From the NCBI GenBank assembly GCA_003696125.1, contig RFHZ01000789.1, positions 1-5,288 of the forward strand: a DNA stretch of 5,288 bases, written 5' to 3'. Position numbers and translations under genes: made by a program. Source of the stretch: Nitrospinota bacterium (GTDB lineage: Bacteria; Tectomicrobia; Entotheonellia; J063). Of this stretch, positions 2 to 5,288 are shown piece by piece. How positions within the stretch are numbered: position 1 is the first letter of the stretch; each line of letters begins with the position of its first letter. The notes beneath the pieces were generated by a model, which was not told the DNA's origin, searched no databases, and worked only from the letters and a program-made list of their open reading frames with translations.

Positions 2-478
2 ATCCAGGTCGATCAGCAGGGGAACGCGCTCCCGCCCGATGTGCTGGTCGATAAGGGGAAGAGGGGACAGATCGCCGAGATCGCCCGCGCCCGCGATACC
101 CTCTCCCCCAACCTGCAGGGGGCGGAGAAGGAGCGCTACCTGCAGGTGAATGCCCCCAACAGGCGGGTGGTGCTCCCCCCGAAAAAGGATGTCTATACCA
201 GCATCGAGGGCTTGATGAATCACTTTAAACTGATCATGTACGGTCATGGGATCCGCCCCCCTAAAGGGGAGGTCTACCAGCCGGTGGAAGGGGCCAACGG
301 AGAGCTCGGGTTTTACGTGGTCAGCGACGGTACCGACCGGCCGTACCGGGTGCATGTCCGTGCCCCCTGTTTCCCGATCATGGCCGCGCTGGCGCAGATT
401 CTGGAAGGGGATATGCTGGCCGATATTATCCCCACGTTCGGTTCGGTGAATATGATTGGAGGGGAATTGGATCGATGA
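2..478 (+). CDS. nuoD: NADH-quinone oxidoreductase subunit D, C-terminal part (5' truncated by window)
   Basis: This is the C-terminal 158 residues of the 49 kDa (NuoD/Nqo4) subunit of respiratory complex I. NuoD sits in the cytoplasmic connecting module and forms most of the quinone-reduction cavity with NuoB. The frame is open to the left edge, so the true start lies upstream; the GTG at 41 is only an internal valine codon. Family signatures are clear: a PPK..VY.SIE.LM.HFKL block, RPPKGEVYQPVEGANGELG, then VVSDGTDRPYR, and the terminal FGSVNMIGGELDR, which matches the usual C-terminal (G)E.DR ending of NuoD. The stop TGA overlaps the ATG of nuoE. The segment before the PPK motif (encoded by about 2-170) is hydrophilic and looks longer than the short linker I expect there. 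The quinone-site His and Tyr residues lie upstream of the window. A Ni-Fe hydrogenase large subunit is excluded by the absence of a C-terminal CxxC metal ligand motif. Confidence 0.95.
   Translation: MQVDQQGNALPPDVLVDKGKRGQIAEIARARDTLSPNLQGAEKERYLQVNAPNRRVVLPPKKDVYTSIEGLMNHFKLIMYGHGIRPPKGEVYQPVEGANGELGFYVVSDGTDRPYRVHVRAPCFPIMAALAQILEGDMLADIIPTFGSVNMIGGELDR
458..478 (+). promoter_or_regulatory. nuoE ribosome binding site and nuoD/nuoE ATGA overlap
   Basis: A strong Shine-Dalgarno sequence, GGAGGGG at 458-464, lies inside the last codons of nuoD, 10 nt before the ATG at 475. The nuoD stop TGA (476-478) and the nuoE start ATG (475-477) share bases as ATGA. This arrangement usually gives translational coupling and supports 475 as the real nuoE start over any later Met codon. 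Confidence 0.8.
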
Positions 479-960
479 GCAGTGAAGTCGTCTTTTCCAC
501 AGAAGGGCAGGAGCGCCTGGCCGCTATCCTCAAGCGGTATCCTTACAAGCGGGCCGCCATCCTCCCGGTACTGCACCTGGCACAGGAGGAGTTTTCCTAT
601 ATCTCTCCGGCCGTGGAGGAGTATGTGGCCCAGCTCCTGGATCTCACCCCGGCCCAGGTGCACGAGGTGGTCACCTTTTATTCCATGTTCCGTTCCCGAC
701 CCCTCGGGAAGTATCATATCGAGTGCTGCACCAACCTCTCCTGCTTTCTGCGGGGAGGTCTCCCCCTGGTCAAATTCCTGGAGGAGAAACTGGGGATTCG
801 CGTGGGGGAGGTTACCCCGGATCAGCAGTTTTCCCTGGCCACGGTGGAGTGCCTGTGCGACTGCGGGTCAGCACCGGTTGTCCGCATCAATAACCGCTAC
901 TACGGTAACCTCTCACCGCAAAAACTGGATGCCCTCCTGGAGGAACTCAAACAGCAGTAA
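475..960 (+). CDS. nuoE: NADH-quinone oxidoreductase subunit E (24 kDa, [2Fe-2S] N1a)
   Basis: NuoE is the 24 kDa subunit of the NADH-oxidising arm of complex I, bound to NuoF in the cytoplasm. It carries the off-pathway [2Fe-2S] cluster N1a. The 161-residue length is normal for the family. Residues about 10-75 form the N-terminal helical part, with the family-typical VHEVVTFYSMF at 62-72. Residues about 80-158 are the thioredoxin-fold ferredoxin. The expected four ligands are present as C85-x4-C90 (CTNLSC) and C126-x3-C130. Two further cysteines stand beside them: C84, giving a CC pair, and C128, giving CLCDC where the family usually has CLGxC. This is unusual and could affect the cluster environment. 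The homologous subunits of NAD-linked hydrogenases and formate dehydrogenases look similar, but the flanking nuoD and nuoF/nuoG genes identify this as complex I. The gene begins in an ATGA overlap with nuoD and ends 15 nt before nuoF. Confidence 0.95.
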   Translation: MSSEVVFSTEGQERLAAILKRYPYKRAAILPVLHLAQEEFSYISPAVEEYVAQLLDLTPAQVHEVVTFYSMFRSRPLGKYHIECCTNLSCFLRGGLPLVKFLEEKLGIRVGEVTPDQQFSLATVECLCDCGSAPVVRINNRYYGNLSPQKLDALLEELKQQ

Positions 961-2268: not shown

Positions 2269-3894
2269 ATGCCGAAGCTGATCATCGATGGGCAAGAGAT
2301 CGAAGTAGAAAAGGGGACAACGATCATGCGGGCCGCAGAGGCCCTCGGAATCGAGATTCCCCGCTATTGCTATCACCCGGGTCTCAGCATCGCCGGGAGC
2401 TGCCGGCTGTGCCAGGTGGAGGTGGAAGGCCAGCGCAAGCTCCAGATCGCCTGCAATACCCAGGTAACGGACGGGATGGTGGTGCATACCGATACGGAAA
2501 AGGTGCAGAGCGCGCGACGGGGAATCCTGGAATTCCTCCTCTCTAACCATCCCCTCGACTGCCCGGTTTGCGATCAGGCCGGGGAGTGCTGGCTGCAGGA
2601 CTACTACATGGTGCACGGCCTGTACGAGAGCCGTTTCATCGGGAATAAACGCAAGCTGAAAAAAGCCTTTCCCATCGGTCCTCACGTCATGCTCGACCAG
2701 GAACGCTGTATCCTCTGCTCCCGCTGTGTCCGTTTCTGTCGAGAGATCGCCGGGGTGCAGGAGCTCGGGATCTTTGCGCGCGGCAATCAAGCGGTGATCG
2801 ATGTCTTCCCCGGCAAGCAGCTCGAGAACAGGTATTCGGGAAACGTGGTCGATATCTGCCCGGTGGGGGCCCTGACCGACAGGGATTTCCGCTTCCAGTG
2901 CCGTGTCTGGTACCTGGAGAGGGGGAATTCGATCTGTCCCGGCTGCAGTACCGGCTGTAACATCGAGGTGCACTACAACATCAAGCGTCCCTATAAGGCC
3001 CAGGGCAGAAGAGTCTTGCGACTCAAGCCGCGCTTTAATCCTGCGGTCAACTCCTACTGGATGTGTGACGAGGGGCGCTACGGGTACAAGTTTATCGATG
3101 CGGAGGATCGGCTCCTCCAGCCGCAACGCAGGAAGGATGCCTCCTCTCCTCCCCAGCCCCAGACCTGGGAGGAGGTGCTCCCGCAGGTGGCTGCCACCAT
3201 ACGGCAGACCCTACAGACCGCCGGTCCTGGAGCCATCGGTGTGCTTGCCTCCCCTCAACTCACCAACGAGGAGCTCTTCCTGGTCAAGCAGCTCTTCCAG
3301 AACGCGCTCAAAGTTCCCCACCTCGATTTCCGGGTACCGGAAAAGCGGGAGGTGTACAGCGATAACTTCCTCATCCGGGCAGACAAAAACCCCAACACCT
3401 GTGGGGCCAATATAATCGGCCTGCTCCCTGCCGGCCAGGGCTATGAGAGCGCAGAGATGCTTGAGCAGGCCGGGATCGGGAAGATCAAGGTCCTCTACGT
3501 CTTTGGTCATGATCTCGTGGCCGCCTTCGGTGAAGAGCGGGTGCAGGCGGTGGCAGATGCCGTAGACATGCTGGTCTTCCAGGGGAGTAATGCCAACGGG
3601 ACGGCCCGGCACGCCCATGTCATCCTCCCCAGCGCCACCTTTGTGGAAAAGGAGGGGACCTTTACCAACTACCAGGGGCGGGTGCAGCGCATCCAGAAGA
3701 TCCTGGATCCTCTCGGCATGGCGCTGGCCGATTGGGAGATCCTGCAACGGCTCGCCTCTGCCCTGGATGTCCACTGGTCCTATCGCTCGTCAGAAGAGAT
3801 CTTCCAGGATCTGGCCAGCCAGGTGCCTCCCTTTGCCGGCCTGACCTATGCCCGTATCGCCGACCAGGGAGTGGTGCTCAGAGAAGAAGGTTGA
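2269..3894 (+). CDS. nuoG: NADH-quinone oxidoreductase subunit G, short form with N7 ligands
   Basis: NuoG (75 kDa/Nqo3 family) wires electrons from NuoF towards NuoI and NuoB in the cytoplasmic arm. Domains in order: a [2Fe-2S] ferredoxin domain (about 1-78) with C34, C45, C48 and C62 (N1b); the His-Cys segment with H94, C98, C101 and C107 (N5); a [4Fe-4S] domain with C147, C150, C153 and C197 (N4; C157 nearby is an additional Cys); and a molybdopterin-type Fe4S segment with C223, C226, C230 and C266 (N7, the off-pathway cluster found only in some bacteria). A reduced, presumably cofactor-free molybdopterin-oxidoreductase-like domain follows (about 296-500), recognisable by ARHAHVILPSATFVEKEGTFTNYQGRVQ-type residues at 446-473. 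At 541 aa it is much shorter than E. coli NuoG (about 910) or Thermus Nqo3 (about 780), yet it ends cleanly after a recognisable C-terminal block. It therefore looks like a natural compact form, not a frameshift remnant. The gene is followed by an Fe-S/NarI gene and not by nuoH. Confidence 0.94.
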   Translation: MPKLIIDGQEIEVEKGTTIMRAAEALGIEIPRYCYHPGLSIAGSCRLCQVEVEGQRKLQIACNTQVTDGMVVHTDTEKVQSARRGILEFLLSNHPLDCPVCDQAGECWLQDYYMVHGLYESRFIGNKRKLKKAFPIGPHVMLDQERCILCSRCVRFCREIAGVQELGIFARGNQAVIDVFPGKQLENRYSGNVVDICPVGALTDRDFRFQCRVWYLERGNSICPGCSTGCNIEVHYNIKRPYKAQGRRVLRLKPRFNPAVNSYWMCDEGRYGYKFIDAEDRLLQPQRRKDASSPPQPQTWEEVLPQVAATIRQTLQTAGPGAIGVLASPQLTNEELFLVKQLFQNALKVPHLDFRVPEKREVYSDNFLIRADKNPNTCGANIIGLLPAGQGYESAEMLEQAGIGKIKVLYVFGHDLVAAFGEERVQAVADAVDMLVFQGSNANGTARHAHVILPSATFVEKEGTFTNYQGRVQRIQKILDPLGMALADWEILQRLASALDVHWSYRSSEEIFQDLASQVPPFAGLTYARIADQGVVLREEG

Positions 3895-3923
3895 TGAGAA
3901 GCGAGAGATGAAAGGAGCCCGCG
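3895..3923 (+). promoter_or_regulatory. Spacer and ribosome binding site for the NarI/CCG gene
   Basis: The 29 nt after the nuoG stop contain AAAGGAG at 3911-3917, 6 nt before the ATG at 3924. This is an optimally placed Shine-Dalgarno sequence that fixes the start of the next gene. There is no hairpin plus T-run, so transcription probably continues from nuoG. An ATG at 3894 opens only a five-codon frame (MRSER) that stops at 3911, ahead of the real start. Confidence 0.75.
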
Positions 3924-5288
3924 ATGCCGACACGAGAGATCTACTGGAACATCGCCTATGGGAAGCTGGTCTATCTCTTTTTCCTCATCGTGCTGGGAGT
4001 TTTGGCGTACGCGGTCTATACCCACTATCAGCGCTGGCGGCTCGGGCAGGGGGAGGAAGAGAACCGCTTTGATCAGGTCGGCCAGCGGATAAAGGATCTC
4101 TTCCTGCAGGTGTTCGGCCAACAGCGTATCCTGCGTGACCGCTATCCCGGGCTCATGCATCTCTTCATCTTCAGCGGTTTCCTGGTCCTGTTCATCGGCA
4201 CCTCGATGATCGCGGTGCAGGAGAACCTCTCCATCGAGTACCTGTACGGGAGCTTTTATCTCTTCTACTCCCTGCTCCTCGATCTCTTCGGTCTCCTGGT
4301 CCTGGTCGGCATCGGCATGGCGGTGTACAGGCGTGTGGTGCTCAGGCCGGAGCGGCTGAACAACGTGCTCGACGATTTTACCACCCTGAGCCTCTTCTTC
4401 CTGGTCCTGCTCACCGGGTATCTGGTGGAAGGACCCCGCATCGCGGCTACCGAGCTCCAGGCGCATCCAGCCTGGAGCTGGTGGTCCCCTCTGGGACTGC
4501 TGGTGGCCAAAATCTTCTCCGGCCTGGAAGAGGGCACGCTGCGCACCATGCATAAGGTCTTCTGGTGGGTACACATGGCCCTGGCCTTTGCCTTTATCGG
4601 GTACTTCGGTTACTCCAAGCTCTCCCATATCCTCTTCTCCCCCCTGAACATCCTGCTCCGCTCCTCCCGGCCGCGGGGGGCCTTAAAACCGATCAGGGAT
4701 TTTGAGAATGCAGAGACCTTTGGTGCAGGCACACTGCGTGACCTCTCCTGGAAGCAACTCCTCGACAGCGATGCCTGTACCAGTTGCGGCCGGTGTCAGG
4801 ATGCCTGTCCCGCCTATCTCAGCGGCAAACCGCTCTCTCCCAAGCAGTTGATCCTCGATATCCGGGCCCGGTTGCAGGCCGATGGTCCCCTCCTCTTGCA
4901 GCAGAAGGGACAGGAAGACGGTGAGGAGGCCTCATCCTGCGGTGCCCTGATCGGGGTGGAGGGGGGGTATATCACCGAGGATGTGCTCTGGTCGTGTACC
5001 ACCTGTGGGGCATGCATGCGGGAGTGCCCGGTCCTGATCGAGCATGTGGACGAGATCGTCGATATGCGTCGTTACCTGGTCTTGATGGAAGGGAGGATGC
5101 CGGAGACGGCAGAGCAGGCACTCCGTAGCCTGGAGACGCGGGGGCATCCCTGGCGGGGTACCACCTTTACCCGCACCAGTTGGACGGAGGGACTCGACAT
5201 CAAGACCATGGCCGAGAAAGGGGAAGCCGATATCCTCTTCTGGGTCGGGTGTAGCGGTGCGCTGTTCGATCGCAATGTCCGCACCACC
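3924..5288 (+). CDS. NarI-like membrane domain / 2x[4Fe-4S] / CCG-domain oxidoreductase (FadF/EMO- or HdrD/HmeD-like), 3' truncated by window
   Basis: The frame runs without a stop from ATG 3924 to the last base and gives the first 455 residues. It begins with a nitrate-reductase-gamma-like membrane domain. About five hydrophobic helices lie near residues 12-32, 76-98, 108-135, 150-168 and 211-232, with histidines H34, H79, H210, H217 and H235 as candidate heme b ligands. A cytoplasmic part follows with two [4Fe-4S] motifs: C285-x2-C288-x2-C291-x3-C295-P, followed by SGKPLSPKQ, and C358-x2-C361-x2-C364-x3-C368-P, followed by VLIEH. From about 436 it reads ILFWVGCSGALFDRN, the start of a CCG (heterodisulfide-reductase HdrB/D-like) domain; C443 would be its first Cys. 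This order is that of membrane-bound ETF:menaquinone oxidoreductases (EMO; Bacillus FadF) and of related HdrD/HmeD-like proteins, usually about 650-700 aa, so roughly a third is missing. The likely role is electron transfer between a soluble donor and the quinone pool. The partner (ETF, thiol or other) cannot be told from this window. It is probably cotranscribed with nuoDEFG. Confidence 0.9.
   Translation, partial: MPTREIYWNIAYGKLVYLFFLIVLGVLAYAVYTHYQRWRLGQGEEENRFDQVGQRIKDLFLQVFGQQRILRDRYPGLMHLFIFSGFLVLFIGTSMIAVQENLSIEYLYGSFYLFYSLLLDLFGLLVLVGIGMAVYRRVVLRPERLNNVLDDFTTLSLFFLVLLTGYLVEGPRIAATELQAHPAWSWWSPLGLLVAKIFSGLEEGTLRTMHKVFWWVHMALAFAFIGYFGYSKLSHILFSPLNILLRSSRPRGALKPIRDFENAETFGAGTLRDLSWKQLLDSDACTSCGRCQDACPAYLSGKPLSPKQLILDIRARLQADGPLLLQQKGQEDGEEASSCGALIGVEGGYITEDVLWSCTTCGACMRECPVLIEHVDEIVDMRRYLVLMEGRMPETAEQALRSLETRGHPWRGTTFTRTSWTEGLDIKTMAEKGEADILFWVGCSGALFDRNVRTT

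Follow-up and report, generated by a model that had tools for sequence, protein, structure and literature searches.

A gene for a probable EtfD-type ETF:quinone oxidoreductase lies in complex-I gene clusters of two phyla

The locus described here raises the question of why a gene for a putative Fe-S membrane oxidoreductase stands directly behind nuoG, among genes of complex I, and what its product would contribute there. The window, meaning the whole stretch of DNA analyzed, is the entire contig C183 of genome G000 (5,288 nt); the assembly comprises 990 contigs, with a completeness of 94.8% and a contamination of 8.0%. Five genes are present, all on the plus strand: the 3′ part of nuoD, nuoE, nuoF, nuoG, and an etfD-type open reading frame (Table 1). 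Judged by their Pfam and NCBIfam matches, the identities of the partial nuoD and of nuoE, nuoF, and nuoG are unambiguous. The best stretch of PF00384 in the window NuoG covered model positions 242–352 only, a partial molybdopterin domain match; the NuoG open reading frames compared here spanned 470–640 aa, the window NuoG having 541 aa.

Table 1. Genes, ribosome-binding site, and codons of putative cofactor ligands in the window
Feature	Position	Strand	Evidence or counterpart
nuoD, 3′ part, 158 codons, entering from beyond the contig start	2..478	+	PF00346 E 2.3e-35; TIGR01962 NuoD E 5e-33, partial because cut
nuoE, 161 aa, 4-nt overlap with nuoD stop	475..960	+	PF01257 E 7e-52; TIGR01958 above cut-off
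nuoF, 422 aa	976..2244	+	TIGR01959 620 bits, above cut-off
nuoG, short type, 541 aa	2269..3894	+	TIGR01973 490 bits, above cut-off
Shine-Dalgarno-like AAAGGAG	3911..3917	+	Read in sequence; 6 nt upstream of ATG at 3924
etfD-type ETF:quinone oxidoreductase gene (FadF/EMO family), first 455 codons	3924..5288	+	PDB 9ojn EtfD E 7.1e-58
His79 codon	4158..4160	+	Aligns with heme b ligand His78 of EtfD (9ojn); His in 44/44
His235 codon	4626..4628	+	Aligns with heme b ligand His241 of EtfD (9ojn); 44/44
First Fer4 motif CTSCGRCQDAC (C285, C288, C291, C295)	4776..4808	+	EtfD Cys301, 304, 307, 311, clusters D4/D3; 44/44
Second Fer4 motif CTTCGACMREC (C358, C361, C364, C368)	4995..5027	+	EtfD Cys412, 415, 418, 422; 44/44
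Cys443 codon, start of CCG region	5250..5252	+	EtfD Cys503, cluster D1; 44/44

The sequence-only reading had described a same-strand open reading frame 29 nt past nuoG with a strong ribosome-binding site, and the junction is as described: the nuoG stop at 3894 and the etfD start at 3924 leave a gap of 29 nt on the same strand, with the AAAGGAG motif at 3911–3917. That reading had also named a transcription stop between the two genes as a result that would count against coupling; no promoter-like or terminator-like site was detected in 3600–4200, where chance expectation is just 0.2 and 0.4, respectively, so this is weak evidence. The RNA at the junction showed no unusual fold. Two unrelated pieces joined during assembly or binning could mimic such a junction, particularly in a MAG of 990 contigs with 8% contamination and with nuoG and etfD differing in their nearest relatives. 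However, neither gene is broken at the junction, G+C and GC3 stay even from one gene to the other, the tetranucleotide profile of the contig fits other sampled G000 contigs (r 0.93), and comparable neighbors are found in relatives of the same class. Composition gives no support to a chimeric contig, and an artefact of this kind seems barely credible.

The contig stops within the last gene, after 455 of roughly 685 codons, and the product of this gene shares 49–59% identity with proteins of about 660–685 aa in relatives. Pfam detected dicluster Fer4 domains together with a NarI-type PF02665 match that was weak yet significant (E 1e-4, slightly short of the curated threshold), whereas NCBIfam gave weak partial matches only. 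The earlier label of a NarI/CCG-type protein thus stands for the marginal NarI match and the dicluster Fer4 domains, while CCG is seen in the window as C443 only. Among all PDB chains, the best match was M. smegmatis EtfD (9ojn, E 7.1e-58), with an HdrC chain as runner-up (E 2e-5), and the full-length protein of a relative (G003) matched 9ojn across both halves (E 5.6e-134). A hydropathy scan of the EtfD-type protein indicated about five membrane helices.

The cofactor ligands of EtfD were taken from PMC13083937, and their conservation was counted over an alignment of 44 homologs. The window protein has a NarI-like membrane domain with both heme b ligands (H79 and H235) and R137, the counterpart of EtfD Arg137, as well as the eight cysteines for two cubane [4Fe-4S] clusters, all of which are features of the EtfD/FadF/EMO family. 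R137 is kept in 44/44 homologs, and the counterpart of Arg306 is likewise invariant over the 44. Both menaquinone-site phenylalanines are present, the first without exception across the 44 homologs and the second in 29/44. Residues 210 and 217 are further histidines in the membrane region, kept in 34/44 and 43/44, respectively; since the Syntrophus EMO is described as diheme, a second heme is possible. On these matches and residues, the window gene is a member of the EtfD/FadF/EMO family (ETF:menaquinone oxidoreductase), a protein family already known, and the previous assignment to FadF/EMO can be narrowed to the EtfD type by the 9ojn match and the kept ligands.

Beyond C443, the remaining CCG motifs of the window copy would lie past the contig end. 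No other contig of the G000 assembly yielded the C-terminal remainder of the gene; matches on C186 and C84 were rejected as the missing end and read as other proteins because they are only 26–28% identical. As the contig ends ahead of these motifs and the remainder was not recovered from the assembly, EtfD-type CCG motifs are predicted for it from the class relatives G001–G004 (55–59% identity), which have all EtfD-type CCG ligands, namely the C-T pair (Thr), CPHC, CCG, and CPFC. These motifs also bear on the suggestion that the protein might be an HdrD/HdrDE-like heterodisulfide or thiol:quinone oxidoreductase, which would have the Fer4 dicluster and CCG architecture in common with it and would account for weak matches to HdrC models and chains. 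The EtfD scores, however, are far above those of the HdrC chains, and the extra catalytic Cys of HdrD (CCG domain 1) is replaced by Thr in G001–G004, G052, and G367, the residue of the window copy itself being past the contig end. The His of CPHC, which according to PMC13083937 makes the EtfD cluster non-catalytic, is present in the class relatives. With the C-T and CPHC of EtfD and no Hdr cysteine in the class relatives, the thiol alternative is disfavored, and we consider it highly improbable.

It had further been proposed that the gene takes the place of nuoH. This is true of position only and wrong in substance: G000 carries two nuoH genes on other contigs, C977 (nuoA-nuoH) and C288 (nuoB-nuoC-nuoH-nuoI), by which a replacement of nuoH is rejected. 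No Nuo membrane-subunit model was among the Pfam or NCBIfam matches of the window etfD, so the homology to a Nuo membrane subunit that would mark it as a complex I subunit was not found. In G000 and its class relatives, the complex-I genes are split over several clusters. A second nuoD of G000 is on C435, and two tandem nuoJ-K-L-M-N sets occupy C290 (L142, 4370–14441) plus C507 (L143, 8354–10574), contigs that presumably adjoin, making the sets continuous. The nuoB-nuoC-nuoH-nuoI order on C288 (L002) equals the order in G101 minus the central D-E-F-G, and the window is a D-E-F-G block followed by etfD. The gene order in G001 (L145) is L-M-A-C-D-E-F-H-J-K-N-J-K-L-M-N.

To place the pairing in a wider context, we surveyed genomes for it. 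An EtfD-type protein is encoded in 123/386 sampled genomes (E 1e-30 or better). Contig positions were compared by eye in 80 of the 123; nuoG lay within 5 kb of etfD in six of these (G000, G001, G003, G004, G101, and G367), which belong to two phyla; pairings split by contig fragmentation, or in complex-I clusters lacking nuoG, would escape this survey. Three of the four class relatives (G001, G003, and G004) have the order iscA-nuoA-nuoH-nuoG-nuoI-etfD-iscS on one strand. The fourth, G002, from the same genus as G001, has iscA-nuoA-H-G-I and etfD-iscS each intact but separated by 1.4 Mb, which is what a rearrangement between nuoI and etfD would produce; the linkage is thus dispensable. Fe-S assembly genes flank the class-relative cluster (L063, L064, L065, L150, and L066), iscA-like before nuoA and iscS-like after etfD, both names coming from inspection of the sequences. 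The second phylum contributes four genomes to the set, of which G101 and G367 alone encode the protein, both in the order nuoB-C-D-E-F-G-H-I-etfD, with etfD directly after nuoI and no J-N genes adjacent. The nuo-etfD adjacency, for which the sequence-only reading had asked for a genome survey, is therefore conserved: it is found again in 3/4 class relatives and, as a separate case, in another phylum. Measured against the refuting conditions named in that reading (nuoH next in line with no conserved adjacency, or a transcription stop), the proposal was not overturned. In Centralia MAG 33, an EtfD-like gene is preceded, at a distance of about 2.7 kb, by a NuoE/NuoF/NuoG-like set (L013, 2205–11959). 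This set was not counted; its 520-aa and 940-aa products resemble a NAD-linked formate dehydrogenase set, a reading based on product sizes and gene order. No earlier report of nuo-etfD linkage was found in a literature search that covered few subscription journals, and the part that appears to be new is the complex-I neighborhood of etfD in two phyla with separate EtfD lineages.

We then asked whether the pairing has one origin or several. The EtfDs of the class and of G052 formed a clade (100/100), far from the G101/G367 clade. For the AU test, the nuo-linked EtfDs were defined as a group by their linkage before the trees were made; forcing those of the class and of G101/G367 into a single clade was rejected (182 log units, AU p 4e-36). 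Since etfD does not form a single clade across the two lineages, two or more origins of the pairing are likely, unless many lineages have lost it. The window nuoG groups with G101, G089, and G234 (SH-aLRT 95), outside its class, and the window EtfD groups with the class. This could mean that nuo genes were swapped in situ next to etfD, or else that the two were brought together afresh. The window nuoG is 61–63% identical to that of G101, from the other phylum, versus 50–52% to those of class relatives.

These trees also bear on the possibility that the protein is an EtfD whose position behind nuo is accidental, a case of hitchhiking among scattered clusters with no regulatory meaning. The complex-I clusters of the class are heavily rearranged, the pairing was seen in only 6/80 surveyed genomes and is lost in G002, and the order common to the three class relatives is inherited and so amounts to one event; yet the pairing occurs in two phyla whose EtfDs are not one clade, and the window nuoG is of a different lineage than the nuoG in family f2 of the class, with etfD still behind it. 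By a rough estimate of our own, if etfD were placed at random in some 70 lineages, well under one of them would be expected to show the pairing within 5 kb. An accidental position is thus unlikely, although it deserves more weight than the other alternatives.

ETF genes were present in all seven genomes checked. In G000 they form an etfBA pair on C359, beside which no acyl-CoA dehydrogenase gene was recognised; in G000, G001, G003, and G101 the ETF genes are distant from etfD or located on different contigs, and within the 5,288-nt window etfD has neither an etf nor an acyl-CoA dehydrogenase gene as a neighbor. The canonical ETF-QO family PF05187 had no match in the seven genomes, an absence that is weak evidence for each single genome since the genomes are incomplete; three control genomes do match. 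Given ETF in all seven genomes and no PF05187 match, the EtfD-type protein is the likely ETF-to-quinone link in these genomes.

We propose that the product of the window gene is an ETF:(mena)quinone oxidoreductase located in the membrane and belonging to the EtfD/FadF/EMO family. ETF reduced by acyl-CoA dehydrogenases would be the electron donor, and electrons would pass from the Fe-S clusters of the CCG region through the two cubane [4Fe-4S] clusters and heme b to a quinone as the acceptor. In beta-oxidation, each turn yields one NADH and one reduced ETF, so joint production of both entry enzymes would be sensible. With etfD within the complex-I cluster, the entry enzymes for NADH (complex I) and for reduced ETF (EtfD) are probably made together, presumably by co-transcription and joint regulation of nuo and etfD. 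We assign a probability of about 0.68 to this reading, in which an EtfD-type oxidoreductase feeds ETF electrons to quinone and is probably co-produced with complex I for beta-oxidation. Its basis is the gene order and its conservation, the cofactor ligands, the ETF genes present, and the failure of the canonical ETF-QO family to match; for the gene layout itself, the explanation we favor most, and consider plausible, is that the entry points for NADH and ETF are expressed jointly.

A closer association is conceivable, in which EtfD is a dedicated partner or an extra input subunit of complex I, with ETF electrons entering at or beside it, or with EtfD bound in a quinone-channelling supercomplex or sharing a local quinone pool, allowing joint entry and joint reverse drive. 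Such a partner could be expected inside complex-I clusters, where etfD is found in two phyla, in G101 and G367 directly after nuoI with no J-N genes adjacent. In most surveyed genomes, however, the protein is encoded away from nuoG, and G002 has both apart; moreover, EtfD already has a full electron path from ETF to quinone (PMC13083937). We regard a physical partnership as quite improbable and retain co-production as the preferred reading. If the pairing reflects joint control, it would be a genome-level marker of beta-oxidation, or its reverse, via the quinone pool, and a clear case of gene order tying EtfD to complex I. It would also aid the annotation of EtfD-like proteins in uncultured phyla, where they are often labelled generic Fe-S oxidoreductases.

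Among known systems, mycobacterial EtfD (M. smegmatis MSMEG_0690, PDB 9ojn; Rv0338c) shares with the window protein the heme b ligands in the membrane domain and the two cubane cluster motifs, and its CCG motifs are matched in the relatives of the window protein. It has a long disordered C-terminal tail, whereas the relatives here extend only a short way past the second CCG domain (about 685 aa), and the sections consulted of PMC13083937 make no mention of nuo linkage for it. According to PMC13083937, B. subtilis FadF and P. aeruginosa DgcB belong to the wider family and have an ETF-linked role; cysteines of cluster D1 are missing from them, but the class relatives retain these. The heterodisulfide reductase HdrDE has domain kinship with the window protein, but the extra Cys of its catalytic cluster is Thr in the class relatives. 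EMO, an ETF:methylmenaquinone oxidoreductase from Syntrophus aciditrophicus (described in PMC8805022, after Agne et al. 2021), belongs to the same family. Syntrophus homologs fall within the same larger clade as the window EtfD (96/95 support) and have the four kept membrane histidines in common with it; the homolog at L005, which may differ from the purified EMO, has no nuo genes nearby. As described in PMC8805022, an EMO works with a reverse redox loop; the same paper gives a proton-pumping NADH:quinone enzyme together with EMO as one possible route.
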